This document shows, one piece after another, positions 16,185 through 31,623 of a stretch of 32,412 nucleotides of DNA. The stretch's first letter is position 1; the number at the start of each line of letters is the position of its first letter. The stretch is taken from assembly GCF_029269265.1 (NCBI RefSeq), contig NZ_JARIXP010000016.1, positions 1 to 32,412 of the forward strand. The letters are read 5' to 3'. The stretch is from Rheinheimera sp. 1928-s (GTDB lineage: Bacteria; Pseudomonadota; Gammaproteobacteria; Enterobacterales; Alteromonadaceae). The position numbers and the translations under genes were made by a program. The notes beneath the pieces were generated by a model. It searched no databases and had not been told where the DNA came from. It saw only the letters and a list, made by a program, of their open reading frames with translations.

Positions 16185-16200
16185 GTAAGACTCCAAATAA

Positions 16201-16228
16201 AAAGGCCAGCGCAAGCTGGCCTTTTTTT
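16201..16228. terminator. Bidirectional terminator after rplQ
   Basis: AAAGGCCAGC / GCTGGCCTTT forms a 10-bp stem around GCAA with seven T after it on the + strand. On the - strand the same stem is followed by TTTTTATTT, so it can also end the converging transporter operon whose last gene stops at 16313. The 84 bases between hairpin and that gene show nothing else. Confidence 0.92.
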
Positions 16229-16312: not shown

Positions 16313-18883
16313 CTATGGAGCTCCCCGTAAACCGCTGCTGATAGAGATGTTTCTGAGATGACGCAACGGTAGATAATGTGCGACCAGACCGCATAAGGTC
16401 ACCAGCAACAAGGTCAGGCCATACAGGGCCAGGCTATAAAACACGAGGCTTTGCAGTGTCATACCTTCAAACGGCAGGCCCTGAGCAGTGACTAAAGCTG
16501 ACAGCCCTTGCAACACCTGTGGCTGATCCTGATTCAGCAACCAAACCAGCCCGATGCCAAGCACCAGACTGCTCAGCAGCACGGCAGATGCCAACAGCCG
16601 CAGATATTCGCGTCCAGATTCCCGCACTATTTGCCGGAACTGCGCCCCCAACGCCAGCTTGATGCTAAATTCATTTTGCCTTAGTTGCAGATTGTATTGC
16701 ATTACGCCAATCAGGCCGATGCCGGACAACAGCACGGTAAACAGAGCCAGACTGATGGCGCCCAGCAGTATGAATTTTTTTGGCAACATGAGCTGATCTA
16801 CCTGATCGGACAATAAACTAAAATGCGTCAGGGCAAACTGGCTATGTGCTTGTTGTAAAATGCGGATCATCTGTTGCTGGCTAAAGGTCGCGCCTGGTTC
16901 GGTCTTGATCAAAAACCATAACGCAGTCCCCAGGTTGGTCATATAAAACCGAGGTGGTGTTGCCGCCAGGCCCGGCAGTTGAATATCTTCTGTCACACCT
17001 ACTATGGTAAAGGGCTGCTTTGCAATATCCAGTTGAATACGTCGTCCGAGCACTTGCTCTAGATCGCCGATGCTTGCCGCCCTGCCCAGCAATTGCATGG
17101 CAAAAGTGCGGTTGACCACCATGTTTGGCGAATGCCCGCTGTGGATATCGGCAGCGCTGAAGCCATGGCCGGCCAATAACGCCTGACCGGCCACCTGAAA
17201 ATAATGCTGATCCACATTACGATGCATAGGATAAAAGCGCCGTTCGCTGCCAAGCTCTGTTGCCGCCATTTGAAAGCGGTCCACCAGCGGATTATAGGCA
17301 AAACTCACCCCGGCTATCCCCGGTTGTTGCCGCAACTGCTCAGCCATTTCGGCAACTTTAGGCGCATAACTGTCCCAGCCTTGCCAGTCGAGGGTAGCGA
17401 CTGAAAATTCCAGCTGCAACAGGTTCTGGCTGGTTAAGCCAAGCGGTCGTTGCAATTTATGCCAGGCGTCCTGCACCAGCAGGCTACTGATAAACACCAG
17501 CACAATGGCACAGCTTAGTTGCAGCAGAATAAAACTACGTCGAAACACGGCGGGGATCTGCACCCCGGCACCTTTGCCACTGCTTTGCAGCGCCAGACTC
17601 AGTTGATGATAACGCACAGTGCGCAGTGATAAGGTTGCAATCAGCAGCGCCAGCAGCACGGCCAGCAGCAACGCACTGCCAAAACTGAATAGCGATAGAC
17701 CAAGCTCGCTGCTACGGGGCAAGCTGTTGCCAAACCAGCGGGTTACCCCGCTAAAACCGGCCTGCGCCAGCAACAAGGCCAAACCTACTGATAGCAGCAT
17801 CAAAAGCAGCGCCTCGGCAAACAATTGTTGCCCGAGCTGAATACGCCGTGCGCCAAGGGCGGCGCGGATCGCCAGCTGTTTTTGCAGCAGCATCAGACGT
17901 GATAAAAACAAATTCAGAATATTGGTGGTGGCAATCAGTAACAATCCGGCACCGCCAAGTAATAACAGCAACAGCAAACCCTCACTGCCGCTGGTGATCA
18001 ACTGCTGCACGGACTGCAATTGCAGTTGCAGGCTCCAGCCTGCAAAATTAGCCTCTCCAACCATTTTTTCCGAAAATTGTTGCTGTGCCAGTGGTGTGAG
18101 TGCTGTCAGCCATTGTTGCAAAGCCGCCGCTTCTCCTTTGAATAGTAAAAAACTGTGTTCATCGGCTAAATGCCAGCTGCCTTTAAAATCGGCGTTGTTG
18201 TAATCCCAGGGTAACCACAGATCAACCGCTGGCAAGGAGGTCCGCAGTTGTGGCGGCACAAAAGTTTTTGCCAGCACGCCCAATACCGGATGCGACACAC
18301 CATTGATCTGTACACTCTGACTCAGCACATCGGGTCTTTGCTGAAACAACAACTGCCAGGCCTGATAACTCAATACCACGCCTGGGTTCATCGAACCTGG
18401 CAGTTGCGCTTGGCTAAAACCATGCCCCAGCAGCAAGGGCATGCCGAGCATTTGCTGCAATTCCGGCGTGGTGTAAGCGCTGCTGAGCCGTGGCTGCGCC
18501 GCATCAGACATTACGATGTCCTGCGTCAGATGCAGCAAGGCCTGCGATATTTCAGGCATGCTTTGTTCAGCAAGTGCAGTTGTAGCAGATTGAGCAGCTG
18601 GCGACTGCCATTGCCGCATTTGCAGATACAGCTGCTCCGCCGCCGGATGTAACACCGCTGAGGATTGCAGTTTGCCTGCGCCGTCCAGCCGCTGATAGTG
18701 CAAGAGCTGCAGTTGCTCTGACTCCGGATAAGGCAGTGGTTTGAATAAAATTTGCCAGCCGAGGCTCAGCACCCACAAAAACACACCACTGGCGATGCCC
18801 ATAGTCAGCACTACTGTCAGTGCAAAACTTTTGTCGCGCCAGAGCGAGTGGGTACTTTGCCTGAGCCAAGGTTCAAACTGCAT
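16313..18883 (-). CDS. Duplicated MacB-like (ADOP-type) permease, copy 4 of 4
   Basis: Inner-membrane permease of the MacB/FtsX superfamily in which the whole module is repeated. 856 residues: TM helix ~20-45, periplasmic MacB_PCD-like region ~50-300, three FtsX helices (~303-327, 355-378, 397-420), a cytoplasmic linker with GKGAGVQI at 436-443, TM ~450-470, a second periplasmic region, and three more helices in the last ~155 residues. Coupling-helix motifs occur in both halves (LAIRAALGAR ~337-346, and ALGAQ after Glu738). The KPLPYPESEQL after TM1 and the LPLR end group it with the 21409-23895 gene (type 1). AAGGAA precedes the ATG; 33 bases follow the previous permease. Last gene of the operon. 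Substrate unknown. Confidence 0.88.
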   Translation of the reverse strand: MQFEPWLRQSTHSLWRDKSFALTVVLTMGIASGVFLWVLSLGWQILFKPLPYPESEQLQLLHYQRLDGAGKLQSSAVLHPAAEQLYLQMRQWQSPAAQSATTALAEQSMPEISQALLHLTQDIVMSDAAQPRLSSAYTTPELQQMLGMPLLLGHGFSQAQLPGSMNPGVVLSYQAWQLLFQQRPDVLSQSVQINGVSHPVLGVLAKTFVPPQLRTSLPAVDLWLPWDYNNADFKGSWHLADEHSFLLFKGEAAALQQWLTALTPLAQQQFSEKMVGEANFAGWSLQLQLQSVQQLITSGSEGLLLLLLLGGAGLLLIATTNILNLFLSRLMLLQKQLAIRAALGARRIQLGQQLFAEALLLMLLSVGLALLLAQAGFSGVTRWFGNSLPRSSELGLSLFSFGSALLLAVLLALLIATLSLRTVRYHQLSLALQSSGKGAGVQIPAVFRRSFILLQLSCAIVLVFISSLLVQDAWHKLQRPLGLTSQNLLQLEFSVATLDWQGWDSYAPKVAEMAEQLRQQPGIAGVSFAYNPLVDRFQMAATELGSERRFYPMHRNVDQHYFQVAGQALLAGHGFSAADIHSGHSPNMVVNRTFAMQLLGRAASIGDLEQVLGRRIQLDIAKQPFTIVGVTEDIQLPGLAATPPRFYMTNLGTALWFLIKTEPGATFSQQQMIRILQQAHSQFALTHFSLLSDQVDQLMLPKKFILLGAISLALFTVLLSGIGLIGVMQYNLQLRQNEFSIKLALGAQFRQIVRESGREYLRLLASAVLLSSLVLGIGLVWLLNQDQPQVLQGLSALVTAQGLPFEGMTLQSLVFYSLALYGLTLLLVTLCGLVAHYLPLRHLRNISISSGLRGAP

Positions 18884-18916
18884 GCTGATTTTCCTTCATT
18901 TCTTAACTTATTAACT

Positions 18917-21406
18917 TCAATTCGAAGCAGTGCCACGCAAAGCGTGCACCACCGGTTTTGTTAATAAAGGTCGCACGCAGCCAACAACAATCAGCGTGGT
19001 GAGCAGTAGCACTGTCAAAAGCGCTAATGCTGCATTCAGCGGGGCTATTTGCAGCAGCTCTGCAAAACCAAAGACCCAACCAAAATTCAGGCTCAGCTGC
19101 AACAGGCTATAACCAACCGTCAGCAGCAATACTGCCCACAGCAGTGGTTTTAAGCTGTCGACTAAGGTTAATTGCAGCAAATGTTGTGGCCGTGCACCTA
19201 AGGATTGGCGTACCGCCAGTTCATATTGGCGCAGCTGAATTTGCGTGCGAATAACCGCGAAAATGCCGAGGCCTGCCAGTGCCAACGCCAGTATTGATAA
19301 GGCTGCAGTCACCACAGTTGCGACTTTGGCATCCTGGGTATGGGTGCCAAAAATCTCAGCACTGGAATGAAAACGGAATACTTTGAGTTGTGGATGTACT
19401 TGCGCCAACGCCTTATTCACCAGATCACGGCTAAGGCTTTGGCCATCCGGCAGCCGGACCAACAAATGTGGAAAGGCCGGTGGCGTCGCCGGGGTGTAAA
19501 CCGCGGCGCTATCGGCTTGACCGGGCAGCGTCAGATCGCTGACCACACCAATGATCCGGCTTGGCGTAGTGGCGCCGCGCAGGTACAAAGGTTTGTCCAG
19601 CATGCTGCTATTGTTGTTAGCACTGCTGTCAGTCCCTTGATTCAACTCAGCCGCCAGTCGACGGGCCAGGCTTTGGCTTATCAGCACCACGCTTTCCTGA
19701 TTTTTCACTTGTTGCGGGCTGAATGTTTCGCCACTTTGCAAGGAAAGCCCGAGTGCTGCCAGATACTCAGCGTCACCGCTATAGCGATAAGTTGGCGCAG
19801 GTGCGGATTGATCGGCGTGCTGGCTGACCGATGACATGGTAAATCCGGCTTGCCAAAAAGAGATAGGCGGGTAACCACCGACGCCGACAAGGGTCGCGTT
19901 GCTTTGCGCTTTCACCGCTTCAGCGGCCTGTACAAACAATTGCCGGCGCTCTTCAATTTGTGAACTTGCCAGCAAGGAGCCTTGTGTCAGCGCCACCTGA
20001 TAGGTCTGTAAATCAAGCCCGGACGGCTGGCGCAGTTTGGCGAGCGCCTGCACAAAAATCTGGCTGCAATAAATCAAGGTAACCAAACAAAACAGCGTTT
20101 GCGACATCAATAGCAATTGGCGGGTTCGCCCGGATACCTGCACTGCTGAACCTTTGCCACTTTGTTGCAGGCTTTGTTGTAGCTGACGGTAGTTCAGTTG
20201 TCGGGTTAGCCAGAGCGCCAGCGTCAGGCAAAGCACAATCAACAGGCCAATCGCAAACAGCACACTCAAAGCTCCGCTGCTAAGCTCCTGCAGCCGCGGT
20301 AACGGCCCGGCATAACCTGCTTGTAAACTTTGATAACAAGCCTCTGCCACACTCAGGCACAACAGCAAAGCCGGAATGGCCAATACCGCAAATTCCAACA
20401 GATATTGGCGAAACAGATGGGACGCCCGCGCACCCAGCGCAATCCGAATGGTCAAGGATCTTTGTTGTGCCATGGCTCGGCCGAGCACCAGATTGGCTAT
20501 ATTGGCGATGGCAATTGCGCAAAGCAGTATGCTGCCTGCCAATAAACTCAGGCTCAAACCAGCAGCATCACCCAAAATCCGGCTACGCACCGACTCCAGA
20601 CGCCAGCGCACCGAGCTATTTTTCAAAAACGCATTGCTCTGGTTGGCTGCTGCAAATTCCGGTGCAGCCCATTGTTCAAAACTATGGGCTAACTGCGCTG
20701 GACTGGCGTCAGCTTTGAGTTTGAGCAGCAGATGGATTTGATTGCTGTTAAAACTCCAATTTGGCGTGCCCATATCATGAAAATCGTAACTAAGCCAAAG
20801 ATCGGTCGACCAGCCAGGCGCGGCTAGCACCGGTTCGACAAAACGCTCTGCCAACACACCCACCACAGTAAAAGACACGCCACGAAATTGCAGGGTTTTG
20901 CCAAGTACCGCCGGGTCGCCAGCAAAATGCTGTTGCCAGACCTGATAGCTTAGTACTGTCACCGGCACCTGACTGTCCAACCCTTCATTCGGGCTTAAGT
21001 GGCGGCCAAGCGCCAGCGGCGCGTCAAACATCGGCAAAAATTCCGGTGTGACATATCCCAGATTAAAAGACGGGTTGCCGGGCAGATTTTGCGCCACATC
21101 AATGCTGATATTGTGCAGTGCTTTAGTTTCCACTTCCGGCCAATCTTGCCGGTAAATATCCAATTGTCCTTGCGCCGGCAGCCATTCGGCTGAAACCTGC
21201 TTGTCTTGCTGCCACTGGCTCCCGCGCACTAACTGCAAACGTTCGGCATCCGGGTAGGGCAGCGGTGCCATAAACAGCTGATAATTTAAGTTAAAAGTGG
21301 CGACCAAAGCACCCAGCGTCAGGCCAATGGTGAGTATGATTGTCAGCGCATACAGCTGCTGGCGTAGCAGCAGTATCTTCGCAGTTTTGAACCAGGATTG
21401 CAGCAT
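18917..21406 (-). CDS. Duplicated MacB-like (ADOP-type) permease, copy 3 of 4
   Basis: 829 residues from the ATG at 21406, chosen because AGGAGGG lies just before it in the end of the preceding gene and the product then begins like its paralogues (MLQSWFKTAKILLLRQ). A longer reading to 21511 would overlap the neighbouring gene by over 100 bases. Architecture is TM1 (~19-40), periplasmic domain, FtsX helices, linker GKGSAVQV (417-424), then the second set. FNLNYQLFMAPLPYPD after TM1 and SGRTRQLLLMSQ after the linker match the 23975-26455 gene, so these two form type 2. Coupling motifs SLTIRIALGAR and ELAVRQSLGAR are present in the two halves. Only two bases separate it from the previous stop. 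Confidence 0.88.
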   Translation of the reverse strand: MLQSWFKTAKILLLRQQLYALTIILTIGLTLGALVATFNLNYQLFMAPLPYPDAERLQLVRGSQWQQDKQVSAEWLPAQGQLDIYRQDWPEVETKALHNISIDVAQNLPGNPSFNLGYVTPEFLPMFDAPLALGRHLSPNEGLDSQVPVTVLSYQVWQQHFAGDPAVLGKTLQFRGVSFTVVGVLAERFVEPVLAAPGWSTDLWLSYDFHDMGTPNWSFNSNQIHLLLKLKADASPAQLAHSFEQWAAPEFAAANQSNAFLKNSSVRWRLESVRSRILGDAAGLSLSLLAGSILLCAIAIANIANLVLGRAMAQQRSLTIRIALGARASHLFRQYLLEFAVLAIPALLLCLSVAEACYQSLQAGYAGPLPRLQELSSGALSVLFAIGLLIVLCLTLALWLTRQLNYRQLQQSLQQSGKGSAVQVSGRTRQLLLMSQTLFCLVTLIYCSQIFVQALAKLRQPSGLDLQTYQVALTQGSLLASSQIEERRQLFVQAAEAVKAQSNATLVGVGGYPPISFWQAGFTMSSVSQHADQSAPAPTYRYSGDAEYLAALGLSLQSGETFSPQQVKNQESVVLISQSLARRLAAELNQGTDSSANNNSSMLDKPLYLRGATTPSRIIGVVSDLTLPGQADSAAVYTPATPPAFPHLLVRLPDGQSLSRDLVNKALAQVHPQLKVFRFHSSAEIFGTHTQDAKVATVVTAALSILALALAGLGIFAVIRTQIQLRQYELAVRQSLGARPQHLLQLTLVDSLKPLLWAVLLLTVGYSLLQLSLNFGWVFGFAELLQIAPLNAALALLTVLLLTTLIVVGCVRPLLTKPVVHALRGTASN

Positions 21407-21408
21407 GA

Positions 21409-23895
21409 TTAAGTTCCCTCCTGAGTCGAGCGGATTAGCTGGTTTGCTGACTGCTGTAAACACTTTCGCAGCGGCAGCAACAAAGCACACAACGACAGGC
21501 CAAGCAAACAACCTGTGCTGAGCAGCAATAATTCCAACAGATAGTGTTCCATGGTGTGCTGAACTTGCAGGTGCAGATAACCACGCATAGCCAACACCAA
21601 CAAAATACTGCTCAGTAAGCCAGCCAAAAACGGCAGGGCATTGTCACGCAGGAACAGGCGGACTATATAATGTTTGTTGGCCCCGAGCGCCAGCCGGATG
21701 CCAATCTCACTGGTACGCAGCTGAACGTTATAATGAATAACCCCATACAATCCGATAGCCGCCAGCAACAGTGACAATAGTGTCAGCACAATGGCAGCCC
21801 CTGCGGTCAGATACTGGCTTTTCAGCAAGCGGGCTTTTTGCTGTTCTAATGAGTCCAACTGATAAATCACCAGCATATCGCTGACGTGCTGCAGTGTAGC
21901 CATCAGTTGATGTTTCAGCAGTTGTTGCCCTGGCTTTAGCATGATGGTAAAGCTGCTGCCGCTGTACATGGGCCGATAAACTCGGGGCGGCACTGTCGCC
22001 TCACCGGGTTTTTTCAGGCCTTGCACCACACCAATAATAACAAATGAAGCATCCGCACCAGCGCTCAAATCAAAAGACAACCGTTGGCCAACAGCCGAAC
22101 CGTCCGGATAAAGATGCCTGGCCAGCACATCATTAATGATCAGCACTTTGTCAGCGGTTTGTACTTGCTGTTTGCTGAAATCATGCCCTTCCAGCAAGGA
22201 TTGGGCTGTCACCTGGAAAAAATGCTCATCCACAATTTGAGCCTGTGGTAACACAGTTTTTTGCGAGCGCTCATCAATCAGTGACCAGGTATTGCTGGCA
22301 CTGACCAAAGGCGACATAGCGCGGCTTACCGCGTCAACTTGTGGCAATAGTTGCAGTTCTGTCATGAGCTGACTGAGCACGGCATTATATTGTTCAGGTA
22401 CCAGTGGTTGAGGTGTATTTAGCCGGACATCAAGGTTCAGCAGATCCGCAGTGGTAAAAACCTGCTGATCGCGAATGCTACTGACCGCACTGAGTAAAAA
22501 TGTCAGATTAACCAACAATAAGAAGCCAGCGACTGCGACCTGACTATACACCAGCGCCTGTCTGACAGAACGCGGGATCTGTGCAGTACTGCCTTTGCCG
22601 CCTGATGCCAAATGGCTTTGCAACTGTCGATAATTTAACTGACCACCACTCAGTTTGCCAAGGCTCAGTAGTTTTGTACTGCACCAGGCAAACAACATGG
22701 CCAGCGCCAGCATCAATACAATCACCAGCAGCAAGGCGGTATAGCCGATGCTGTCATAACCGGATAATGGCAATACATCAGGCAGGTTGTGTCGGATAAA
22801 CCAGCTCCCGATCAGTGAAATGCCCCAGCCAGCCAGTGCAGAGAGTGCCATCAGCACTGCGATTTCACTCAACAGGACCAAACGAACTTGTGCTGGCCTG
22901 GCACCGAGAGCCGCGCACAGTGCCAGCTCTTTATTCCGTTCTGCCACTCGGGCTAATAACAAATTGGCGATATTGGCGGTGGCGATCAGTAATAAAGCCA
23001 GAGCACCTGCCAGCAGCAGATAAGCCGCCAGATTACTGTCGCCAAAGATCACCTGACGCAAGCTGCTGAACTTCATCTCAACCCGCCAACCCTGATAAAA
23101 GGGGATGGCTGCAACTTCTTGTTGCCAGGTTCGATCGACCAGATCGGTCAGGCTCTGCTGCGCTTGCTGAACCGGGATATCCGCTTTGAGTTTGCCAATA
23201 AAAATTCGCGGATTCGCTCTATCTCCCCAGCGACTGCGGATTGACTCAGTCGCGGGGTTAAAGTGCCAGGGTAGCCAGATGGCCGTTTCTCGCCCGGATT
23301 GAGAAAGTTCAGGCTCGGTAAAATCAGCCGATAGCACTCCAGCTACCTTATAGCTGTTGCCACGAATGCTGAGCACTTTGCCAATAATGTCGGGGTCGGC
23401 AGAAAACAAGGATTGCCACACCGTATAACTCAGCACAGCGACAGGTTCAGCCAGATCTGGATTGCTAACGGGCTGAAACAACTGGCCAAGATGAGGCCCT
23501 GCCCCCAGAGTCCGGAAAAAATCAGCCGTGATATAACTGGTAGCGAGTTTGGGCTGATCAGGGTGTGACACCAAGACTTCATCATCATAGTGAGCCAGGC
23601 CGACACTGGAGAACAGGGCCTGATCTTGCTGTTGCTGCTGATACATATGCATCAAGCTGGCATAACCATAGGCATTCACATTGGGCAGGCCGGACTTATC
23701 AATCTGCAGTTGTTCTACTTTATATAGCTGCTCCGACTCAGGATAAGGTAAGGGCTGCAACACCAGATAATAAAACAGCCCTGCGGCGTTTAATAAAATG
23801 CCCAGAGTGATGCTCATCGTCAGCACAATGCTGAGGGCAAAACCCCGACGTCTGTGCAAATTTTTCCAGGCTGTTTTGAGCTGATATACAAACAT
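21409..23895 (-). CDS. Duplicated MacB-like (ADOP-type) permease, copy 2 of 4
   Basis: 828 residues, MFVYQLKTAWKNLHRRRGF then TM1. Same two-fold MacB_PCD-FtsX plan: first FtsX helices carry LAAYLLLAGALALLLIATANIANLLLARV, the linker motif is GGKGSTAQI (glycine of GKGS at 433), and the second FtsX set ends in ALLLPLRKCLQQS. Type 1, by LQPLPYPESEQL after TM1 and the LLPLR ending shared with the 16313-18883 gene. The second-half coupling helix SEIGIRLALGAN is closest to canonical MacB, while the first half has ELALCAALGAR with Cys in place of the usual Arg. AAGGAT lies before the start. Seventy-nine bases separate it from the previous permease. Confidence 0.88.
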   Translation of the reverse strand: MFVYQLKTAWKNLHRRRGFALSIVLTMSITLGILLNAAGLFYYLVLQPLPYPESEQLYKVEQLQIDKSGLPNVNAYGYASLMHMYQQQQQDQALFSSVGLAHYDDEVLVSHPDQPKLATSYITADFFRTLGAGPHLGQLFQPVSNPDLAEPVAVLSYTVWQSLFSADPDIIGKVLSIRGNSYKVAGVLSADFTEPELSQSGRETAIWLPWHFNPATESIRSRWGDRANPRIFIGKLKADIPVQQAQQSLTDLVDRTWQQEVAAIPFYQGWRVEMKFSSLRQVIFGDSNLAAYLLLAGALALLLIATANIANLLLARVAERNKELALCAALGARPAQVRLVLLSEIAVLMALSALAGWGISLIGSWFIRHNLPDVLPLSGYDSIGYTALLLVIVLMLALAMLFAWCSTKLLSLGKLSGGQLNYRQLQSHLASGGKGSTAQIPRSVRQALVYSQVAVAGFLLLVNLTFLLSAVSSIRDQQVFTTADLLNLDVRLNTPQPLVPEQYNAVLSQLMTELQLLPQVDAVSRAMSPLVSASNTWSLIDERSQKTVLPQAQIVDEHFFQVTAQSLLEGHDFSKQQVQTADKVLIINDVLARHLYPDGSAVGQRLSFDLSAGADASFVIIGVVQGLKKPGEATVPPRVYRPMYSGSSFTIMLKPGQQLLKHQLMATLQHVSDMLVIYQLDSLEQQKARLLKSQYLTAGAAIVLTLLSLLLAAIGLYGVIHYNVQLRTSEIGIRLALGANKHYIVRLFLRDNALPFLAGLLSSILLVLAMRGYLHLQVQHTMEHYLLELLLLSTGCLLGLSLCALLLPLRKCLQQSANQLIRSTQEGT

Positions 23896-23974
23896 AGTGC
23901 TGAATCCTTATTCTTATAGTTGTTGGCGGATGCGGTTTATTATTAATGTGAGGCATGCCAAAGCAACCATCAGG

Positions 23975-23987
23975 TTATTGTCCTTGT
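23975..23987. repeat. 13-base direct repeat, left copy (edge of permease copy 1)
   Basis: TTATTGTCCTTGT on the + strand, that is ACAAGGACAATAA across the stop codon of permease copy 1. It is identical to 26457-26469 at the other edge of the gene. After this copy comes GATG, as at the right edge, here opening an 18-codon frame (23914-23970, - strand) with no recognisable product. Confidence 0.7.
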
Positions 23988-26455
23988 AACGCATAAATGG
24001 CGGGTTTTCGGATAATGCCCCAGACTGACAACAACGATGTCAGTACTGTTAACAGCACTATCAGCGTCAGTGGCAGCGCAAAACCGCCAGCTGACAGTTC
24101 CACTGTGAACATTGTTTGTCGCAGGCCAAGCCAGAGAATTGCCAGCAGCAATGCCGCCAGTACTAAACCAGCACAAACAGGTTTCAGGTTTTCACCCAAC
24201 AATTGACGCAAAATGGTGGCAGGCCGGGCACCAATCGCCATTCGCACACCCAGTTCAAAGCGGCGCTGCTGCACGCTGTAACTCAGCACGCCATAAATAC
24301 CTATAGCGGCAAGCAGGAAACTTAGCAGCACAAGAGTGGTAGTCGCAGCAGCTGTCAGATAGTTACGCAGCCGCACCTTGTCGATATTATCTGCAATGCT
24401 ATAGATATTGGCCGCCCTATAGTTGGCAGAGACTTGCGCCATTGCCTGGTTGATAGCGGTTTTGTCAATCTGCATACCTGGTTTCAGTTGCAATTGCAGG
24501 TTGGCTGTAGTGCCAAGATTGCGGGTTAAGTAACTGCGGCCTGTCTCGTGCGGTGACCATAGATCCGGCAACTGATGATTAAGGCTTACGCCAATAATCT
24601 CAAATGCGAGGCTGCCATCCGGCGAATACAACTGCTGGCCAACCACATTACCATCGGGTCGAAGCTGCAGTGCCAGTGCCTGATTAATGATCACCACCAG
24701 TGCTTGTGAGCTGATTTCCTGTGCCGTGAAGTTACGGCCTTGCACTAATTTGATGTCAAACAGCGGCAGATAAAACTGATCGGTGTAAACCGCACGGCTG
24801 AACAGCAGTTGAGTCGGGCTGTCTGGCGAGGCTATAAAACTTGCCGAACCATAATAACCATCAAAAGAAATCGGCGGATAATTGCTGACTGAGGCTGTCT
24901 GTACCGCCGGATGTTGTTGCAGAATATCACGCACCTGCATCAGCTCGTCCTTTTGTTGACGATATACAGCGCGTCGTTGCTCCAGCGGTAAACTGGCGTC
25001 CGGTACAGGGGTCATATCATCAATGGTAATTTGATAGCGATCAGTGCTGGTAAAACCTACGTGCTGGCGCAGTTGTTGTAACGACTGCAACAGCACTTGT
25101 GCACTACAAATCAGCAACAGGCCTGCCAGCATCACCTGAGCGCCAATCAACAACTGTCGGGTACGGCCGCTGATTTGCACGCCGCTGCCTTTGCCACTGC
25201 TTTGCAGGTTTTGTTGCAGCGCCTGATAGTTGATTTGCCGGCTGATTAGGGTCGCAAATCCCAGAGCCAGCAGCAGGCTGACCAACAGCGCAAAAGCCAA
25301 AGTCGGCCAGTCCATACCCAGTTCTGTCAGTCGCGGCAGAGTGGTACCAGCATAAGCCCACAACAACGCATAAGCACCTTCGGCTACGACAAAAGCGACC
25401 AGCAGCGCTGCTGTCAGTAACCAAGTGAGTTCAGCCAACACAGAGCCCAATAAATGGTGTCGCTGCGCCCCGAGTGCTGCCTGAATACTCATGCTGCGTT
25501 GCTGGCGGGCGGCGTGGGACAATAATAAGTTGGTAATATTAGCTGCAGCGATCAGCAATAACAGCACACTGCCGATCAGCATCGACAGTGTTGCTTTACT
25601 GCTGTCCCCGTCCATCATCTGCCGCAGTGGTTCGGCATGAAAGCGCGCAGTGCGCCCGGCCTGAGCGGGTATGGCCGCAACTGCCTCCTGAAATTTTTGC
25701 TGAATTTGTGGCCTTAACTCTTGCTCGAAGACCTGAAGCGCACCGGCGTCTTTCAGTTTCGCCAGATAAAAGTGGGCACCGCTGACATCGCCTGGGCTCG
25801 CATTCGCGCCAGGCGCATAATCCCAGGGTAACCAGATGTCATTCACGCGGGCCGGGCCTGTCAGAGCAGGCTCCCGGAAAGTCGCTGCGGTAATGCCAAT
25901 CACTTTAAATGACTGATTGCCTATCTGTACTGTGCGTCCTACTGTGGCCGGATCAGCCTGATAGTGTTCGCGCCAGATTTTTTCACTCAACACAGCCACA
26001 GCTTGGTGACTGCCGACATCTTCATCCGCACTAAATGCCCGGCCATGTAATAACGGCATCTGGTACATCCGCATATAACCTGGCGTGGTGTAAGCAATCT
26101 GTACTTGTGGGCTGTTCGCTAGATCCCGCAGCGTCATACCAACGTATGAAAAGCTAAATAACGCCTGATCGCTTAAATGCTCTGAGGGTTTGGGGTAAAG
26201 CTGACGGAAAACGCTGACTGGTAGCACGCGCGGATACATCACAGATCCATCTTTTTCCAACCAAGCCGTGCTACCCACCATTAACTGATCTTCATCAGCA
26301 TAAGGCAGCGGCGCAGCTAAAATTTGATAATTCAGGTTAAACATGGCGACCAATGAACCCAGTGCTAAACCCAGCGTCAGTACCACAGTGGCGGCATACC
26401 CTTTGGCTTTGCTAAGCCTATAAAGTGCAGTGGAGAAGTCTCTGCGAGAAATCAT
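23975..26455 (-). CDS. Duplicated MacB-like (ADOP-type) permease, copy 1 of 4
   Basis: 826 residues from the ATG at 26455. This start has AAGGAC eight bases upstream and follows the small membrane-protein stop by one base; a longer reading to 26536 would overlap that gene by 80 bases. TM1 (VVLTLGLALGSLVAMFNLNY), periplasmic domain, FtsX helices, linker GKGSGVQI (421-428), second periplasmic domain and final FtsX set ending PAIYALQGQ. Type 2. The second-half coupling helix is ELGVRMAIGAR; the first half reads SMSIQAALGAQ, without the usual Arg. A 13-base direct repeat sits at both edges of the gene. Confidence 0.88.
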   Translation of the reverse strand: MISRRDFSTALYRLSKAKGYAATVVLTLGLALGSLVAMFNLNYQILAAPLPYADEDQLMVGSTAWLEKDGSVMYPRVLPVSVFRQLYPKPSEHLSDQALFSFSYVGMTLRDLANSPQVQIAYTTPGYMRMYQMPLLHGRAFSADEDVGSHQAVAVLSEKIWREHYQADPATVGRTVQIGNQSFKVIGITAATFREPALTGPARVNDIWLPWDYAPGANASPGDVSGAHFYLAKLKDAGALQVFEQELRPQIQQKFQEAVAAIPAQAGRTARFHAEPLRQMMDGDSSKATLSMLIGSVLLLLIAAANITNLLLSHAARQQRSMSIQAALGAQRHHLLGSVLAELTWLLTAALLVAFVVAEGAYALLWAYAGTTLPRLTELGMDWPTLAFALLVSLLLALGFATLISRQINYQALQQNLQSSGKGSGVQISGRTRQLLIGAQVMLAGLLLICSAQVLLQSLQQLRQHVGFTSTDRYQITIDDMTPVPDASLPLEQRRAVYRQQKDELMQVRDILQQHPAVQTASVSNYPPISFDGYYGSASFIASPDSPTQLLFSRAVYTDQFYLPLFDIKLVQGRNFTAQEISSQALVVIINQALALQLRPDGNVVGQQLYSPDGSLAFEIIGVSLNHQLPDLWSPHETGRSYLTRNLGTTANLQLQLKPGMQIDKTAINQAMAQVSANYRAANIYSIADNIDKVRLRNYLTAAATTTLVLLSFLLAAIGIYGVLSYSVQQRRFELGVRMAIGARPATILRQLLGENLKPVCAGLVLAALLLAILWLGLRQTMFTVELSAGGFALPLTLIVLLTVLTSLLSVWGIIRKPAIYALQGQ

Positions 26456-26456
26456 C

Positions 26457-26469
26457 TTATTGTCCTTGT
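26457..26469. repeat. 13-base direct repeat, right copy (edge of permease copy 1)
   Basis: Same 13 bases as 23975-23987. Here they hold the end and stop codon of the 77-residue membrane protein and the ribosome-binding site of permease copy 1. Confidence 0.7.
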
Positions 26470-26690
26470 GCCGGAGATATCCGACTGGCATTGATTTGTC
26501 CTTGGTTCTGTTCCAGCAGTGAAACCAACAGCGCAAAAACCAGCAGACACACTAATTGTAATAAACCGAATACCAGCAACAGCCAGCTGCTTTGCAATGG
26601 CCAGACACTTCGTAAGGTGGGCAACAAATTCAGTAAGCTGATCAATAGGCTTAAGCTAATACCGCAGGTAAAAAGTCGGCTGAGTTGCAT
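26457..26690 (-). CDS. Small two-helix membrane protein, unknown function
   Basis: Not a family I recognise. 77 residues: a short basic start (MQLSRLF), a hydrophobic stretch at ~8-26, a second at ~34-60 (WLLLVFGLLQLVCLLVFALLV), then a polar tail EQNQGQINASRISPAQGQ. AAGGAG lies six bases before the ATG, and TAAGATG joins its stop to the next permease start, whose ribosome-binding site is inside this gene. That spacing argues strongly that it is translated and coupled to permease copy 1. Position between ATPase and permeases suggests an accessory subunit or regulator of the complex; this is inference. Hydrophobic low-complexity sequence could by chance look like a membrane protein, but the start and stop signals make that less likely. 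Confidence 0.72.
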   Translation of the reverse strand: MQLSRLFTCGISLSLLISLLNLLPTLRSVWPLQSSWLLLVFGLLQLVCLLVFALLVSLLEQNQGQINASRISPAQGQ

Positions 26691-26752
26691 CCTTCACTCC
26701 TTGTTTGGCAGCTTGTACTGCGCAATGCTGCGGCTGGCCGCTACGAACACAG

Positions 26753-27490
26753 TTACTGAGCCGCAATCTGGCGTAAAGCTGTGGTGTGTTGTTGCATAGG
26801 TGTGCCGTCACTATCCAGAATACGCCCATCCAGCAGGTGCAACTTGCGGCTTGCCATATCGGCATAACGTGGGTCGTGTGTCACCATACAAAGGGTGGTG
26901 CCGTTATTATTCAGTTCACACAACATATCCATCACGGCGTCGCCATTTTTGGAGTCCAGGTTACCTGTAGGTTCATCGACTAACAGCAACGCCGGGCTAC
27001 CCACTAAAGCGCGGGCTATGGCAATACGTTGCTGCTGACCACCGGATAACTGGTTAGGTCTGTGACCGGCTCTATGGGTCATATCTACGGTTTTCAGGCA
27101 AGCCATCACACGGTCTTCAATTTCAGATTTAGCAACAGACTGGCGGCGATAACGCAGGGGCAGGGCTATATTGTCGAATACAGTCAGCTCATCTATTAAG
27201 TTAAATGACTGAAAGATAAAACCTATTTTTTCATTGCGGATAAAGGCCGCTTCGCTCAGGCTTAAGCCGCTGACTTCTTTGCCTTCAATTTGATAACTGC
27301 CACCACTGGGCATATCCAATAAACCAAGCAGAGATAACAAAGTAGACTTACCGCAACCGGACGGGCCGCAAATCGAGACGAAATCGCCTGATGAAATCTG
27401 TAAGTCGATACCCCGTAAGGCATGGGTTTCCATTTCATCTGTGGCGAAAATTTTGGTGATGCCTTGCATCAGGATAGTTGGGGGTTGCAT
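26753..27490 (-). CDS. ABC transporter ATPase, MacB/LolD class
   Basis: Cytoplasmic nucleotide-binding subunit that would power the four permeases. 245 residues, a single complete ATPase domain: Walker A GPSGCGKST (42-50), Q-loop Gln94 in FIFQSFNLID, signature LSGGQ (148-152), Walker B LLLVDE (168-173), D-loop NLDS, H-loop His205. The FNLIDELTVFDNIALPL stretch is typical of the MacB/LolD branch, which works by mechanotransmission with FtsX-type permeases. AAAGGAAC precedes the start; 25 bases follow the adaptor gene. It is the only ATPase in the operon. Confidence 0.95.
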   Translation of the reverse strand: MQPPTILMQGITKIFATDEMETHALRGIDLQISSGDFVSICGPSGCGKSTLLSLLGLLDMPSGGSYQIEGKEVSGLSLSEAAFIRNEKIGFIFQSFNLIDELTVFDNIALPLRYRRQSVAKSEIEDRVMACLKTVDMTHRAGHRPNQLSGGQQQRIAIARALVGSPALLLVDEPTGNLDSKNGDAVMDMLCELNNNGTTLCMVTHDPRYADMASRKLHLLDGRILDSDGTPMQQHTTALRQIAAQ

Positions 27491-27515
27491 AGAAAGTTCC
27501 TTTGCTTAATAGTCT

Positions 27516-28763
27516 TTAACGCACAACGCTGACAGTGTCTGCGTCCTGAAATCCTGCCATGTCGGATAAGACAAATTGCTCACCTTCAATGGCACCTTGG
27601 TGTAGCTGTAAAAAACGTCCGGCTTCGTCGCCAAACTGCACTGCTGTGGCGGACAAGGTATTAGTGCTTGGATCCAGTTTAAACAGTCTGGTCTGGCTAT
27701 GACTTTGGCTATTCACCGGACGGTCCAGGTATAAAGTGTTCGTCAGCTCAGCGGTAAAAATCTGTGCATCTATATTGAGTTCTGGCCGGGCAGAGGCAGG
27801 GATAGCGTCAACAAAAGTGAGTTCCACTTCGATAGTGCCTTCGACGACCTGGGGCGTTACCCTGCTGACCACGGCATCAGCTTGTTCACGCCTGGTATTA
27901 ATACGGGCTTTTTGGCCGGGCCGAATTTGTTCGGCTTTGCTTTGGGATACCCGCACCAGAGCCAATAAATCTTTATCACTGCCTACCAATGCCAGCTCCT
28001 GACCTGCAGTTACACTTTGGCCCAGTTCAACCGGAACTCGTTGCAACACACCTTCGATCCCAGAGCGTACTGTCAGTTGATCCAATCGCTGTTTTAAACG
28101 TTGCTCGCGGGCTATCGCCTGATTCAGTTGCTCTTGCGAAATGGTCAACGCTTCCTGATTGACCAGCTTTAGCTGATCCAGTCGCTTCTGTTGTAACTGA
28201 ACTTGTTGTGCCAGTTGAGATTTCTCCAGCACTGTGGTCTGAAAACTTAACTGTGAAACTATGCCCTTAGCTGCCATTTCCGCTTCTGCGCTGTGACGTA
28301 ATACCAGCATTTGATAGCGGGCATCTAATTCTGCAAACCGGCCTTCTTCGGTCAGCATGTCACGCTGGTTGTTTAAATGCTGACGGCGGAAATTGGCATG
28401 TTCCTGTGCTGTGGCCATGCTGGCTGTTTCGATTTGCTGCATCAGTTCCGGATCGCTTAAACGCAGGATGATGGAATCTGCTTGCACTACAGCGCCGGCT
28501 TTTAACACCACTTCTTCCACTGTGGCAGGTGCTAAGGCGCTGATCAGCTTTTGTTTATCTGAACGCAATACGCCATAACCATCCACTGTGACCTGCAGAT
28601 CGCCACGCTTCACAGTACCCAGCAATAAACCGGATTGTTCAATTTTGTATTGATAGCCAGGGGATGCAAACAAAGTACCCATCAGGACTAAAGCCGCCAG
28701 TGCGCTAACGACTAACACTGGCTTCTTCCAGAGCGCTGCAGCTTTTTCTTTTTTTATATCCAT
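27516..28763 (-). CDS. HlyD/MacA-type periplasmic adaptor
   Basis: Membrane-fusion protein that would link the inner-membrane pump to an outer-membrane channel. 415 residues: cytoplasmic basic start, one TM helix at ~15-33 (VLVVSALAALVLMGTLFA), first lipoyl half ~55-110, a long Gln/Leu-rich coiled coil from ~110 to ~230, second lipoyl half (SGIEGVLQRVPVELGQSVTAGQELALVG), then beta-barrel and membrane-proximal regions. First gene after the sigma54 promoter, with a leader of about 92 bases. No TolC-like channel gene is nearby. The long hairpin favours docking to a TolC-type channel, though some HlyD-like proteins act without one. Confidence 0.93.
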   Translation of the reverse strand: MDIKKEKAAALWKKPVLVVSALAALVLMGTLFASPGYQYKIEQSGLLLGTVKRGDLQVTVDGYGVLRSDKQKLISALAPATVEEVVLKAGAVVQADSIILRLSDPELMQQIETASMATAQEHANFRRQHLNNQRDMLTEEGRFAELDARYQMLVLRHSAEAEMAAKGIVSQLSFQTTVLEKSQLAQQVQLQQKRLDQLKLVNQEALTISQEQLNQAIAREQRLKQRLDQLTVRSGIEGVLQRVPVELGQSVTAGQELALVGSDKDLLALVRVSQSKAEQIRPGQKARINTRREQADAVVSRVTPQVVEGTIEVELTFVDAIPASARPELNIDAQIFTAELTNTLYLDRPVNSQSHSQTRLFKLDPSTNTLSATAVQFGDEAGRFLQLHQGAIEGEQFVLSDMAGFQDADTVSVVR

Positions 28764-28865
28764 ACTGATTTTCCGCCTTGCCTCTTATCGTTGAATCTAA
28801 GCACAGCCACGTCGAATTGTTGCAGGGAGACACTTCAAATCGGCGCAGCTATGTTTTTTCAATAG

Positions 28866-28881
28866 AGCAAAGGGTATGCCA
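28866..28881 (-). promoter_or_regulatory. Sigma54 promoter of the transporter operon
   Basis: On the - strand TGGCATACCCTTTGCT matches the sigma54 consensus TGGCACR-N4-TTGCW at all positions but one (T for C in the -24 box), with exact GG/GC spacing. The start would be near 28855, about 92 bases before the adaptor ATG. Confidence 0.88.
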
Positions 28882-28932
28882 CCATGTAAAGCTCTGATTT
28901 ATATTAATATTTATTGATTGTTGTGAAGGGTT

Positions 28933-28969
28933 AGTCCGGGATCGGACGCTTTGAGTCCGGAATCGGACT
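28933..28969. promoter_or_regulatory. Tandem upstream activator sites
   Basis: Two perfect palindromes, GTCCG-GGAT-CGGAC (28934-28947) and AGTCCG-GAAT-CGGACT (28954-28969), have centres 21 bases apart, two helical turns. They lie about 86 and 107 bases upstream of the predicted sigma54 start, standard for enhancers of NtrC-type activators. The obvious binder is the Fis-type helix-turn-helix of the regulator encoded at 30244-31623. Confidence 0.85.
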
Positions 28970-28988
28970 TTTAAATGGAGAAAAAGAA

Positions 28989-30260
28989 TCAATCTTGCGG
29001 CAAGAATAAAGTAGCGCAAGAGCCTGTTATACCGTCAGTTCTGTTGGTCAGATTCAATTCGCCTCCCAGTTGTTCAATGATCTGCCGGCATAAGGCTAAA
29101 CCTATGCCCTGACCCTGGGGTTTAGTACTGTAAAATGGCACAAATAAATCTTGTTGGTTACTAAGGCCAGGGCCTTGATCCAACAGCTGGATTTCAAGAT
29201 TGTGATTTTGTAGCTTGAAATGCAACAACACTGTGCCTGCCGGGCTACCTGCTTCAATGGCATTTTTTATCAGGTTAATCAACACCTGTTGCAACAACAT
29301 CTGATCACTTTTAAATACCAGCTCTGTACCGCTGGCTTGTAGTTGATGCTGCTGAAACAACAGCTGCAAAGAGTGAAACAATTGTCCGGCGTTAATCTGC
29401 TGGTGCTGGATCCGCAGCTCTTTATTCAGTTCGGCATAACGGCTGACAAAGTCCTGCAAATGCTGACTGCGTTCGTGGATCAAGGCCAGAGCGTCCTGAT
29501 CACGGCCTGGTGGCAATTTCTGCTGCAAATGTTCTGACAAACTGAGTACTGGCGTCAGTGAGTTACGAATTTCATGGCTCAGAACCCGGATCAATTGTTG
29601 CCAGGCTTGGAGCTGAGTTTCCCGCAAAGCCGCCTGAATGTTAATAAAAACCAGCAACTGGTGACGCTGGCCTTGATCCAAAAAACGACTTTGGCGGATC
29701 TGCCATTGTTTTGCTTTTTCTTTATTGACAAAATTCCAATGAGGTAAGGCGCTCAACCCCAAACTTTCTGCCGTCGCATGGCGCATACTTTGCCAGGGGC
29801 GGCCAAACAAATGGCTGAATTCGTTATTGGCGTAACTCAACTGCTGTTTATGATCAAACACCAGAATAGGGGTGTTTAACTGATCAATCAGCCGATACAG
29901 CAAAAACTGTTGTTCATCAAAATAGCTTTTCCGTTGCTGTAACTGCTCGCTGAGCTGCTGTAACTGGAGCTGTAGCTGTGCTGCTATCCCTTTCTGAAAA
30001 ACAGCCTTAGCCTGCAAACTGTAATCCTGATTTTGCATCGCCTCTAACTGCACACTGGTACGACGAAAAGCAGCAATAGTTTGCTGTCTAACGAAGTGCT
30101 GCCACCTGGTAATGAAAACAAAAGCACAACAGCTACTAAGCCAAACCCACCAATGGGGCCAGAACCAGCAAAGCAGTGATGCCAACGCCAAGCAAAGCAA
30201 AGCAATCAGCAGTGACTGCTTACGGCTTTGCGTTTCTATGCTGTCAGAGTTCCAGGCCAT
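28989..30260 (-). CDS. Sensor histidine kinase, NtrY/NtrB-like, no periplasmic domain
   Basis: Partner kinase of the adjacent regulator. The ATG at 30260 gives 423 residues and overlaps the regulator stop by 17 bases; a TTG at 30302 would be an alternative. Two TM helices (~16-33 and ~37-51) are joined by only a few residues (WPHWW), so there is no room for a periplasmic sensor. Next come a coiled-coil linker (~85-115) and a PAS-like region from ~122 (LNTPILVFDHKQQLSYANNEF). The phosphoacceptor His229 is in LSHEIRNSLTP and the N-box at NLIKNAIEA (Asn333). ATP lid motifs are DQGPGL (361-366) and GQGIGLAL. All catalytic motifs are intact. The stop lies 20 bases from the activator sites. Confidence 0.92.
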   Translation of the reverse strand: MAWNSDSIETQSRKQSLLIALLCLALASLLCWFWPHWWVWLSSCCAFVFITRWQHFVRQQTIAAFRRTSVQLEAMQNQDYSLQAKAVFQKGIAAQLQLQLQQLSEQLQQRKSYFDEQQFLLYRLIDQLNTPILVFDHKQQLSYANNEFSHLFGRPWQSMRHATAESLGLSALPHWNFVNKEKAKQWQIRQSRFLDQGQRHQLLVFINIQAALRETQLQAWQQLIRVLSHEIRNSLTPVLSLSEHLQQKLPPGRDQDALALIHERSQHLQDFVSRYAELNKELRIQHQQINAGQLFHSLQLLFQQHQLQASGTELVFKSDQMLLQQVLINLIKNAIEAGSPAGTVLLHFKLQNHNLEIQLLDQGPGLSNQQDLFVPFYSTKPQGQGIGLALCRQIIEQLGGELNLTNRTDGITGSCATLFLPQD

Positions 30261-31623
30261 GTTTTTCCAGTCTGCGGTATAAAGACGACTTGGTAATACC
30301 AAGCTTTTCAGCAGTTTTTTGTTTATTGCCCTGACAAAGTTGTAATGCCTGACGGATCAAGGTCAGTTCGGCCTGCTCCAGTGTCATCAAAGGTAAAGTT
30401 GCCGCTTGTGTTGCTACAGACAGCTGCTCATCCGGTAACGTCAGCTCCTTGAGTGAGATCTCTTTGTTTTGAGTTAACAACACGGCGCGCTCAAGCAGAT
30501 GACTCAGTTCTCTGATATTGCCAGGCCAGTGATACTGTTGTAACCGGCTTAATGCGTTGTGATGCAAAGTCAGGCCTGTCTTATGATAACGCTGGCCATG
30601 TTTGTGCAGGAAAAACTGGCAAAGGGGAGCTATATCTGCAGGTCTTTCTCTTAAAGGAGGTATACGAAATTCCAGTGTATTAAGGCGGTAATACAGATCC
30701 TGACGGAATTGGCCATTTTGGATCAAGGCAGAAAAATCAGCATTGGTTGCCGCAATCAGTCTTAGATCGCTGTGTTCAGTCTGACTGGATCCTACAGCTT
30801 CATACTGGCCTGACTCGAGTACACGCAACAACTTCGCCTGTTGCCCTAAGGGTAAAGTAGCGATTTCATCAAGAAACAAAGTGCCACCTTTAGCTAAGCT
30901 AAAACGGCCAGCCCTGGCTTCTTTGGCGTCAGTAAAAGCGCCTTTTTTATGGCCAAAAAGTTCGCTTTCAAATAAAGCTTCTGGGATAGCGGCCATATTG
31001 ACTGAAATCAAAGGCCCGGCTGATCGGCCTGAATGCTGGTGCAGCCAGTGTGCCAACTGACTTTTTCCTGTGCCGTTTTCGCCAGTCAGCAGAATATTAG
31101 CTTCTGTGGCTGCTACGGTTTGCAGCTGCTGCATCAGTGTCAGCATTTGCGAACTTTGCCAGACCAGCTCAAGTGGGGTCGATGACAACTGTTGGTGCAG
31201 GGCTTTATTCTGTCGGGTCAGTGTGGACAGCTTCAGCTGCTGCTGCAAAATTTGCTGCAGTCGTTGGTTATTCCATGGCTTTTCAACAAAGTCACCGGCA
31301 CCTGCCTGCATCGCCTGCACTACTAAGGTGGTATTCGACCAGGCCGTCATAGCTACGACTGGAATGTCATAACCCTGTTGTTGCAGGTAACGTAAGAAGC
31401 GCAACCCTTCCTCACCTGAAGTGGTATCCAGCTGAAAGTTCATATCCAGCAGGATCAGATCCGGTTGTTGTTGTTGCAGCCATTCGCGGGCTTGTACAGG
31501 GTTTTCCAGTTCTTCAATGCTGTAACCCAGATCTTCCAGCACAAAACGGGCTGCAAGTCTGACTTCGCGATTATCCTCTACAAGCAGGATCAGGGGCTGA
31601 TAATCCGGGCGCGTTTGCACCAT
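30244..31623 (-). CDS. Sigma54-dependent response regulator, NtrC family
   Basis: Transcription activator. 459 residues in three domains. Receiver (~10-125): acidic pair Glu16/Asp17, phosphoacceptor Asp60 in LILLDMNF, Thr93, Lys115 in EKPW. AAA+ domain (~150-385): Walker A GENGTGKS (181-188), the sigma54 contact loop GAFTDA (228-233) in place of GAFTGA, Walker B GGTLFLDE (246-253), and WPGNIRELSHLLERA. C-terminal Fis-type helix-turn-helix (~432-455, NKQKTAEKLGITKSSLYRRL). GGAG lies before the ATG. First gene of the regulator-kinase pair; it probably acts on the palindromes at 28933-28969. Confidence 0.95.
   Translation of the reverse strand: MVQTRPDYQPLILLVEDNREVRLAARFVLEDLGYSIEELENPVQAREWLQQQQPDLILLDMNFQLDTTSGEEGLRFLRYLQQQGYDIPVVAMTAWSNTTLVVQAMQAGAGDFVEKPWNNQRLQQILQQQLKLSTLTRQNKALHQQLSSTPLELVWQSSQMLTLMQQLQTVAATEANILLTGENGTGKSQLAHWLHQHSGRSAGPLISVNMAAIPEALFESELFGHKKGAFTDAKEARAGRFSLAKGGTLFLDEIATLPLGQQAKLLRVLESGQYEAVGSSQTEHSDLRLIAATNADFSALIQNGQFRQDLYYRLNTLEFRIPPLRERPADIAPLCQFFLHKHGQRYHKTGLTLHHNALSRLQQYHWPGNIRELSHLLERAVLLTQNKEISLKELTLPDEQLSVATQAATLPLMTLEQAELTLIRQALQLCQGNKQKTAEKLGITKSSLYRRLEKHGLEL

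Follow-up and report, generated by a model that had tools for sequence, protein, structure and literature searches.

A candidate two-component-controlled, MacB-like transporter locus with a variable permease array in Rheinheimera

Gene content of the locus

We analysed a 32,412-base contig of Rheinheimera sp. 1928-s (NZ_JARIXP010000016.1), part of a 4.64-Mb genome, and refer to this whole stretch as the window. Nine minus-strand genes at positions 16313-31623 encode a response regulator (RR), a histidine kinase (HK), a periplasmic adaptor, an ATP-binding cassette (ABC) ATPase, a small membrane protein and four paralogous permeases. RR, HK, adaptor and ATPase are here called the chassis, and the run of permeases the array. 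All nine genes named in the original prediction, which had been drawn from the sequence alone, were recovered by sequence inspection and domain scans. Their treatment as one group is supported by synteny of the chassis in 8 of 21 other same-genus genomes (G handles), namely those having an adaptor of at least 58% identity. The gene set is not unique: an adaptor, a LolD/DarD-like ATPase and one to several ADOP-like permeases recur together in Gammaproteobacteria, Acidobacteria and Verrucomicrobia. An adaptor scan returned 88 relatives; the analysis went on with the best 80 loci (L handles), which include some near copies and some loci from the same genomes as the G handles.

The NtrC-type RR (30244..31623) matched a receiver, a sigma54 AAA+ and a Fis helix-turn-helix domain, the architecture of a sigma54-dependent enhancer-binding response regulator. 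Sigma54 activators classically carry the loop GAFTGA; the RR of the window has GAFTDA, as have 31 of 35 related RRs, the others having GAFTGA (one), GAFTDS (one) or no match (two). The HK (28989..30260, with an internal ATG as the presumed start) matched HisKA and HATPase_c, and PAS weakly. It has a hydrophobic N-terminus without a periplasmic sensor domain, and in its closest orthologs this N-terminus, judged by eye, consists of two segments around a short WPHWW-like turn.

The 415-aa adaptor of the HlyD/RND-MFP type (27516..28763) matched HlyD_3 and HlyD_D23 above the Pfam cut-offs, which places a periplasmic adaptor inside the operon; its score against NCBIfam RND_mfp was 63.2 bits, under the cut-off of 94.9, and MexJ was its sole match among solved structures compared by sequence. 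The predicted 245-residue ATPase (26753..27490), of the DarD/LolD/FtsE/MacB group, contains the catalytic Walker A, LSGGQ, Walker B and H-loop motifs. Its best NCBIfam model was the darobactin protein DarD (254.5 bits, under the cut-off of 375), followed by LolD (218.6 bits, cut-off 307.75). On the same strand, 62 nt downstream, lies the small gene (26457..26690) that precedes permease 1. Its 77-aa membrane protein had no Pfam or NCBIfam match; in a comparison of reading frames of at least 50-60 aa, only the window and the four relatives nearest to it were seen to encode such a protein. A short hydrophobic frame was also seen directly after the ATPase at locus L074. No outer-membrane channel gene is present among the nine genes; five open reading frames (ORFs) with TolC-like OEP matches lie elsewhere in the genome.

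Architecture of the permeases

The four permeases were assigned to clades A (permease 1, 23975..26455, 826 aa), B (permease 2, 21409..23895, 828 aa), C (permease 3, 18917..21406, 829 aa) and D (permease 4, 16313..18883, 856 aa), with lengths counted from the most plausible ATGs and agreeing with the 826-856 residues given earlier. Each contains two MacB_PCD and two FtsX stretches above the Pfam cut-offs, as in the MacB superfamily of type VII ABC transporters, and eight membrane segments by hydropathy after overlapping segments were merged. An LGA/IGA coupling-type motif lies in each half of all four, and a looser form of the motif occupies the expected positions in each half of 66 out of 85 permeases. 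Pairwise identity is 27-32% among the four permeases of the window and 25-34% between clades when all copies of clades A-D are compared. When permease 2 was compared by sequence with solved structures, it matched MacB and two other permeases only.

The best NCBIfam match of the permeases was TIGR03434 (ADOP), near full-length and with the same duplicated architecture, although the scores (417.5, 439.0, 343.4 and 326.8 bits for permeases 1 to 4) are below its cut-off of 622.3. The label "MacB-like" is therefore apt for the domains and incomplete for the proteins, which are duplicated and closest to the ADOP model. Each permease is predicted to be a duplicated ADOP-like pseudo-dimer with eight transmembrane (TM) helices, and thus a complete membrane unit on which an ATPase dimer could dock. 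The original prediction implied that so large an amount of permease on a single ATPase is odd; that view is not supported, as every permease has two modules and would probably pair with two ATPase copies.

Transcription and control element

Tight spacing had been taken as a sign of a single nine-gene transcript. It is present between the small gene and permease 1 (1 nt) and between permeases 2 and 3 (2 nt), but the remaining joints of the adaptor operon measure 25, 33, 62 and 79 nt; the RR and HK reading frames overlap. The predicted bidirectional terminator corresponds to a GC-rich, terminator-like hairpin at 16199..16228, between permease 4 and rplQ, with T runs on both strands. A plain promoter and terminator scan did not list this end hairpin, and returned 12 sigma70-type sites against 16.8 in shuffles. 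We set aside the single nine-gene transcript because the 225-nt gap between HK and adaptor carries a -24/-12 site close to the consensus, together with two exact 14-nt palindromes. RR-HK and a seven-gene operon, running from the adaptor through the ATPase and the small gene to the four permeases, look like separate units, and RR-HK transcription may read through into the latter.

The sigma54 promoter-like site, TGGCATACCCTTTGCT (28866..28881, minus strand), begins 118 nt ahead of the adaptor start and scores 13.5 of 14.5, a value equalled in 0 of 200 shuffles that preserve base content only. About 50 nt upstream of it stand two GTCCGATNCCGGAC palindromes 21 nt apart, GTCCGATTCCGGAC (28955..28968, minus strand), a proposed RR enhancer site, and GTCCGATCCCGGAC (28934..28947, minus strand). 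These are the only two exact matches in the genome; with up to two mismatches the palindrome occurs at 45 places, against 235 for a reversed control pattern. The genome holds one Sigma54_DBD (rpoN) match. We infer that the palindromes are RR binding sites from which the adaptor operon is driven.

The element recurs in relatives. A GTCCGN4CGGAC pair with a spacing of 20-21 nt and at most one mismatch in each copy was found in the window and in all 13 nearest chassis loci, compared with one pair in the 1.24 Mb of those loci outside upstream regions. Among the 70 of the 80 loci for which an upstream region was obtainable, 41 carry one palindrome copy, with no more than one mismatch, at a distance of up to 350 nt from the adaptor, against 0-5 for six permuted palindromes. 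By group, the palindrome is present in 13/13 nearest chassis loci, in 6/13 other Alteromonadales, and in 22/44 loci of Lysobacterales, Acidobacteria, Verrucomicrobia and others, compared with 39/1672 random stretches. It is also present where no RR was found in the available stretch, in 1/5 other Alteromonadales and in 17/32 loci of the last group, and a distant regulator may therefore read the same operator in loci of other phyla. The palindromes upstream of the adaptor in other phyla belong to loci L093-L148. Sigma54 scoring covered 39 upstream regions: in 23 of them no more than 1 of 200 shuffles equalled the best site, and in four (L071, L076, L116 and L117) 2-7 did so. Tentatively, and as part of the immunity-array reading set out below, the GTCCG-N4-CGGAC/sigma54 control element could serve as a marker of this class of systems across phyla.

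A stable chassis with a changing array

A full-length adaptor of at least 58% identity is present in 9 of 22 same-genus genomes, own genome included. One further genome contains a 97-residue adaptor piece of 62% identity with internal stops (G020:C15:1947-2237), which was left out of the count and is possibly the remnant of a lost chassis. In the eight other genomes the regulator pair and the ATPase are syntenic, and the permeases vary in number (1-5 intact), type and order. G006 has five (A-A'-A''-C-B). Three intact clades, A-C-D, occur in both G009 and G007, and A-D in G010; G005 has [A split]-B-C, G014 has A-[A'' split]-C-[D fragment] and G021 has A-[D decayed]. G004 has C alone, so that one permease seems sufficient for a chassis.

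This variability bears on the idea that the four permeases form one hetero-oligomeric machine. The operon-like run with some tight joints would fit such a machine, but intact arrays range from one to five members of varying type and order, each permease of the window has its own two modules and two coupling-type motifs, and loci with one permease are common (26/80, some of them cut by contig ends). We regard a hetero-oligomer as scarcely credible.

Envelope housekeeping, that is lipid or lipoprotein handling of the LolCDE or YbbAP kind, is in our view distinctly unlikely. LolD as the second-best ATPase model and the MacB-superfamily domains are in its favour; however, the adaptor count given above is only 9 of 22 genomes, the permeases turn over and decay, and an adaptor is present, which to our knowledge LolCDE lacks.

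Decay could also mean that the array is selectively neutral, with tandem duplicates coming and going and one permease in use. Split, decayed or fragmentary copies occur in G005, G014 and G021; in G006 the last permease is followed by 28 residues that match the start of a C permease; and the D-like fourth copy of Alishewanella L075 stops early and, aligned with permease 4, shows a gap of roughly 118 residues. Split or decayed copies lie at L050:11780-14343, L052:8160-10639 and L055:8737-11175, and those split into two pieces may be assembly errors. Against neutrality, the window retains four intact permeases of low mutual identity side by side, and other strains also have intact members of clades A, C and D. 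We consider a neutral array very unlikely.

With regard to its surroundings, the array has ribosomal-protein genes on one side and, on the other, a 16S rRNA gene, with whose first 223 bases the contig ends. The plus-strand genes to the left of the array, among which Rfam matched an Alpha_RBS element, are taken by us to be ribosomal-protein operons. A slot adjoining rplQ is common to G005, G009, G010 and G021. The 20 kb examined in G004 and in G007 contained no rplQ or 16S match, and in G006 and G014 the match is limited to sequence upstream of the RR. At two loci, L073:2418-6945 (R. riviphila) and L083:2384-6932 (Rheinheimera sp. SA_1), a different ABC ATPase and a frame of >1200 aa stand divergently beside the chassis.

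The nearest named loci in the adaptor scan belong to Rheinheimera and two unclassified gammaproteobacterial metagenome-assembled genomes. Permeases near the 80 loci were counted with a hidden Markov model score of at least 350 and a length of 770-960 aa, in flanks of up to 10 kb or to the contig end, with longer or fused frames dropped. One permease was counted at 26 loci, two at 14, three at 22, four at one and none at 17; a few of those counted are encoded on the far side of the adaptor or on the opposite strand (e.g. L121, L122, L124 and L126). At family level, 51 of 196 genomes have an ATPase match at E <=1e-95, a match that does not by itself prove the same system.

Separate histories of the permeases

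Identities with the window at fourfold degenerate sites were compared between chassis and permeases, using Fisher tests on counts rebuilt from rounded percentages, in which the sites are partly dependent. The chassis is the more similar in G005 (79% vs 55% for permease 3, p 5e-15), in G006 (81% vs 50% for permease 1, p 2e-22; permease 2 70%) and in G009 (78% vs 52% for permease 3 and 42% for permease 4). Over these three genomes permease 3 reaches 52-57% and the chassis 78-81%. In G014, for which percentages only were compared, the chassis genes have 67-80%, permease 1 48% and permease 3 46%. The relation is reversed in G004 (chassis 40% vs permease 3 65%, p 1e-12) and, for permease 3, in G007 (64% vs 42% for the chassis).

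In the chassis tree the window groups with L049, L069, L070 and L072 (100/100). For C, the approximately unbiased (AU) test rejected a chassis-matching clade at p 2.3e-5 (five rows) and 1.1e-5 (four rows), and for A at p 1.7e-5, with groups defined by the chassis and a permease tree already known beforehand. These comparisons show that several permeases, though not all, have histories unlike that of their chassis. In G006, the DNA of the second A copy is 77-82% identical to the first and third from codon 721 onwards, 68-75% over the first 60 codons and 41-68% between; such similar ends could serve homologous recombination.

Neighbourhoods of relatives and the substrate class

Nonribosomal peptide synthetase (NRPS) genes were found by BLAST beside single-permease relatives at L057/L091 (one locus), L058, L059, L065, L066, L080, L081, L082, L087, L092 and L113. 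Pfam scans of eight NRPS proteins, which omitted L059, L081 and L092, gave Condensation and AMP-binding domains in six (L058, L065, L066, L080, L082 and L113) and carrier and thioesterase domains in those of L087 and L057. In a tree of 58 permeases, L058/L059 are sister to clade D and L080/L082 to A + C + L076, both with SH-aLRT 100, in what is a quick tree without bootstrap and with long branches elsewhere. The permease of L058 is 42% identical to permease 4, and those of L080 and L082 are 34% and 33% identical to permease 1.

At L060 (in the own genome), L062 and L095, an ABC exporter of the C39-peptidase type with a HlyD-like partner is encoded directly upstream (Pfam was run on L060 only). 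L060 and L062 also contain a 56-59-aa ORF with LDKIVGG, resembling a double-glycine leader. These two one-permease relatives, each with exporter, HlyD-like partner and short ORF, occupy L060:7321-14792 (own-genome contig C18) and L062:5920-13382, and each is possibly a small bacteriocin system. The other own-genome relative, L061, had neither a C39-type exporter nor a short peptide ORF in the stretch examined.

Within the best 80 loci, an NRPS match was obtained for 0 of 37 loci with at least two permeases and for 7 of 26 with one (Fisher 0.0012), the loci being non-independent; L080, L081 and L092 look like near copies. Repeating the count with four NRPS probes and a translated search gave the same 7/80 loci. 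The permeases of the array would thus seem to be related to peptide transporters of producers and to have been set on a regulated chassis that has no biosynthesis genes with it, as expected of a resistance array. These neighbourhoods narrow the substrate class; most likely the substrates are peptide natural products met in the environment.

The same relatives, lying within NRPS clusters or beside a C39-peptidase exporter, would also fit a system that exports, or protects the cell against, a peptide or nonribosomal product of its own whose biosynthesis genes lie elsewhere in the genome, as would the nearest named ATPase model, DarD, a part of the darobactin exporter. However, the array has ribosomal-protein genes and the 16S rRNA gene as neighbours, no biosynthesis gene was seen in the window, and the NRPS matches are confined to single-permease loci in the above count of non-independent loci. 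Export of an own product is unlikely, and resistance is the more likely of the two functions.

Proposed mechanism

From the gene set, the promoter-like site, the palindromes, the duplicated permeases, the variability of the array, the several incongruent histories and the NRPS and peptide context of relatives, all read from sequence, we infer RR binding, the shared ATPase, the make-up of the complex, the direction of transport and the substrate. We propose, with a confidence about evenly divided, that the locus encodes a tripartite type VII (MacB-like) ABC efflux system, induced through the two-component pair, in which plug-in permeases each bring their own specificity for peptide natural products. 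Envelope or transporter-derived signals would reach the HK, which has no periplasmic sensor domain of its own, and pass to the RR; by analogy, the transporter itself may act as the sensor of the HK. The RR, bound to the two tandem palindromes, would activate the sigma54 promoter and with it the genes for the adaptor, the ATPase, the small protein and permeases 1-4. Each fused pseudo-dimer permease would recruit the single ATPase in two copies and would be connected by the common adaptor to a TolC-like channel encoded elsewhere. The result would be four alternative pumps that share their motor and adaptor, the substrate range being set by each permease, and strains would gain, lose and exchange permeases while the chassis persists.

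A number of observations weigh against this proposal. The hydropathy threshold marked one membrane segment in the HK, the second being judged by eye. Twelve of the 39 upstream regions have no convincing sigma54 site (equalled by at least 14 of 200 shuffles), including those of the chassis orthologs L077, L079 and L090, the remainder being L080, L081, L082, L092, L093, L095, L104, L113 and L143. Permease exchange is not universal, because permease 2 of G005, permease 1 of G009 and permeases 1 and 4 of G007 do not differ from the chassis at fourfold sites, and in G010 and G021 permeases and chassis are visibly alike (42-45% vs 37-46%, percentages only). The peptide link rests on relatives, because the window holds no biosynthesis gene; the permeases of the NRPS- or peptide-linked relatives are only 42%, 33-34% or less identical to those of the window, and many relatives (e.g. 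L061, L063, L064, L067, L084 and L116) have no NRPS or peptide genes in the stretch examined.

A further, tentative step would be to regard the locus as a modular, horizontally reshuffled immunity array, in which a fixed sensor-motor-adaptor chassis is combined with permease cassettes that began as immunity or export genes in peptide-antibiotic clusters; a single inducible ATPase would then serve an expandable, strain-specific efflux repertoire. If the proposed mechanism is true, bacteria broaden efflux specificity by swapping the permease alone, and a DNA signature is available for locating such arrays. A large, little-studied group of duplicated FtsX-type permeases becomes testable, with a regulator-operator pair, one ATPase, exchangeable permeases and a substrate class to screen.

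Comparison with known systems

Membership in plain MacAB, DarBCD or ADOP was rejected, as all scores are below the NCBIfam cut-offs; matches to the MacB model PRK10535.1 are far under its cut-off. The window shares type VII permease domains and a periplasmic adaptor with MacAB-TolC and PvdRT-OpmQ, but has a separate ATPase and a fused pseudo-dimer permease in four copies. MacB sensu stricto is a nucleotide-binding domain fused to a 4-TM permease of about 650 aa, in contrast to the separate 245-aa ATPase and the 8-TM permeases found here. All four permeases resemble ADOP in being near full-length matches with duplicated MacB_PCD/FtsX modules and about 800 aa; they differ in their lower scores (327-439 bits, under 622.3) and in the ATPase and adaptor encoded alongside. 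ADOP permeases were named as orphans without a neighbouring ATPase. Copy numbers of ADOP in Dyadobacter are given, and its function is called unknown, in a passage of PMC11573002, and ADOP wording is also used in PMC11078007 and PMC4837290.

A likeness to the darobactin exporter DarBCD lies in the ATPase, with DarD as its best model, and in the adaptor, which matches DarC at 57.4 bits. All scores are nevertheless under the cut-offs (DarD 375; DarC 450; DarB at most 29.8 of 700), and only permeases 1 and 4 match DarB at E up to 0.001, weakly; furthermore, several permeases and a sigma54-type two-component pair are present here, and no precursor peptide was seen. YbbAP and LolCDE likewise have a separate LolD-type ATPase, and we know of no adaptor or two-component pair in either. 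A passage of PMC5985334 describes YbbP as two fused MacB units. YbbP is also said to have two linking TM helices, in which it differs from the permeases of the window. PMC5985334, in part, places MacAB homologs in phytotoxin operons, where a further pump is needed for the inner membrane.

Compared with BceAB-BceRS, the permeases of the window have eight TM helices and two large domains instead of ten and one large extracellular domain, and are accompanied by an NtrC-type RR and an adaptor. Bce-type kinases are similar in having a short extracellular loop. A further likeness lies in an FtsX-type permease with a dedicated two-component pair, and Bce transporters and their two-component systems are said to sense antibiotics jointly (passages of PMC5985334). 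One ATPase for several ABC systems is described for MsmK in part of PMC4519317, although these are sugar uptake systems and not exporters of the type seen here.

The open-access literature searched described no permease array of this kind, which is no proof of absence. Sigma54 control of FtsX-type permeases as such is already in print, because PMC12316311 reports that sigma54 control is enriched for COG0577 permeases. The prediction made there for FtsX-type permeases is by class-level enrichment, and the authors claim the first evidence tying sigma54 to the FtsX-like permease family. What is new here, as judged from the genomes compared, is the contrast between a stable chassis and an array whose permeases differ in number, type and order from one Rheinheimera genome to another.

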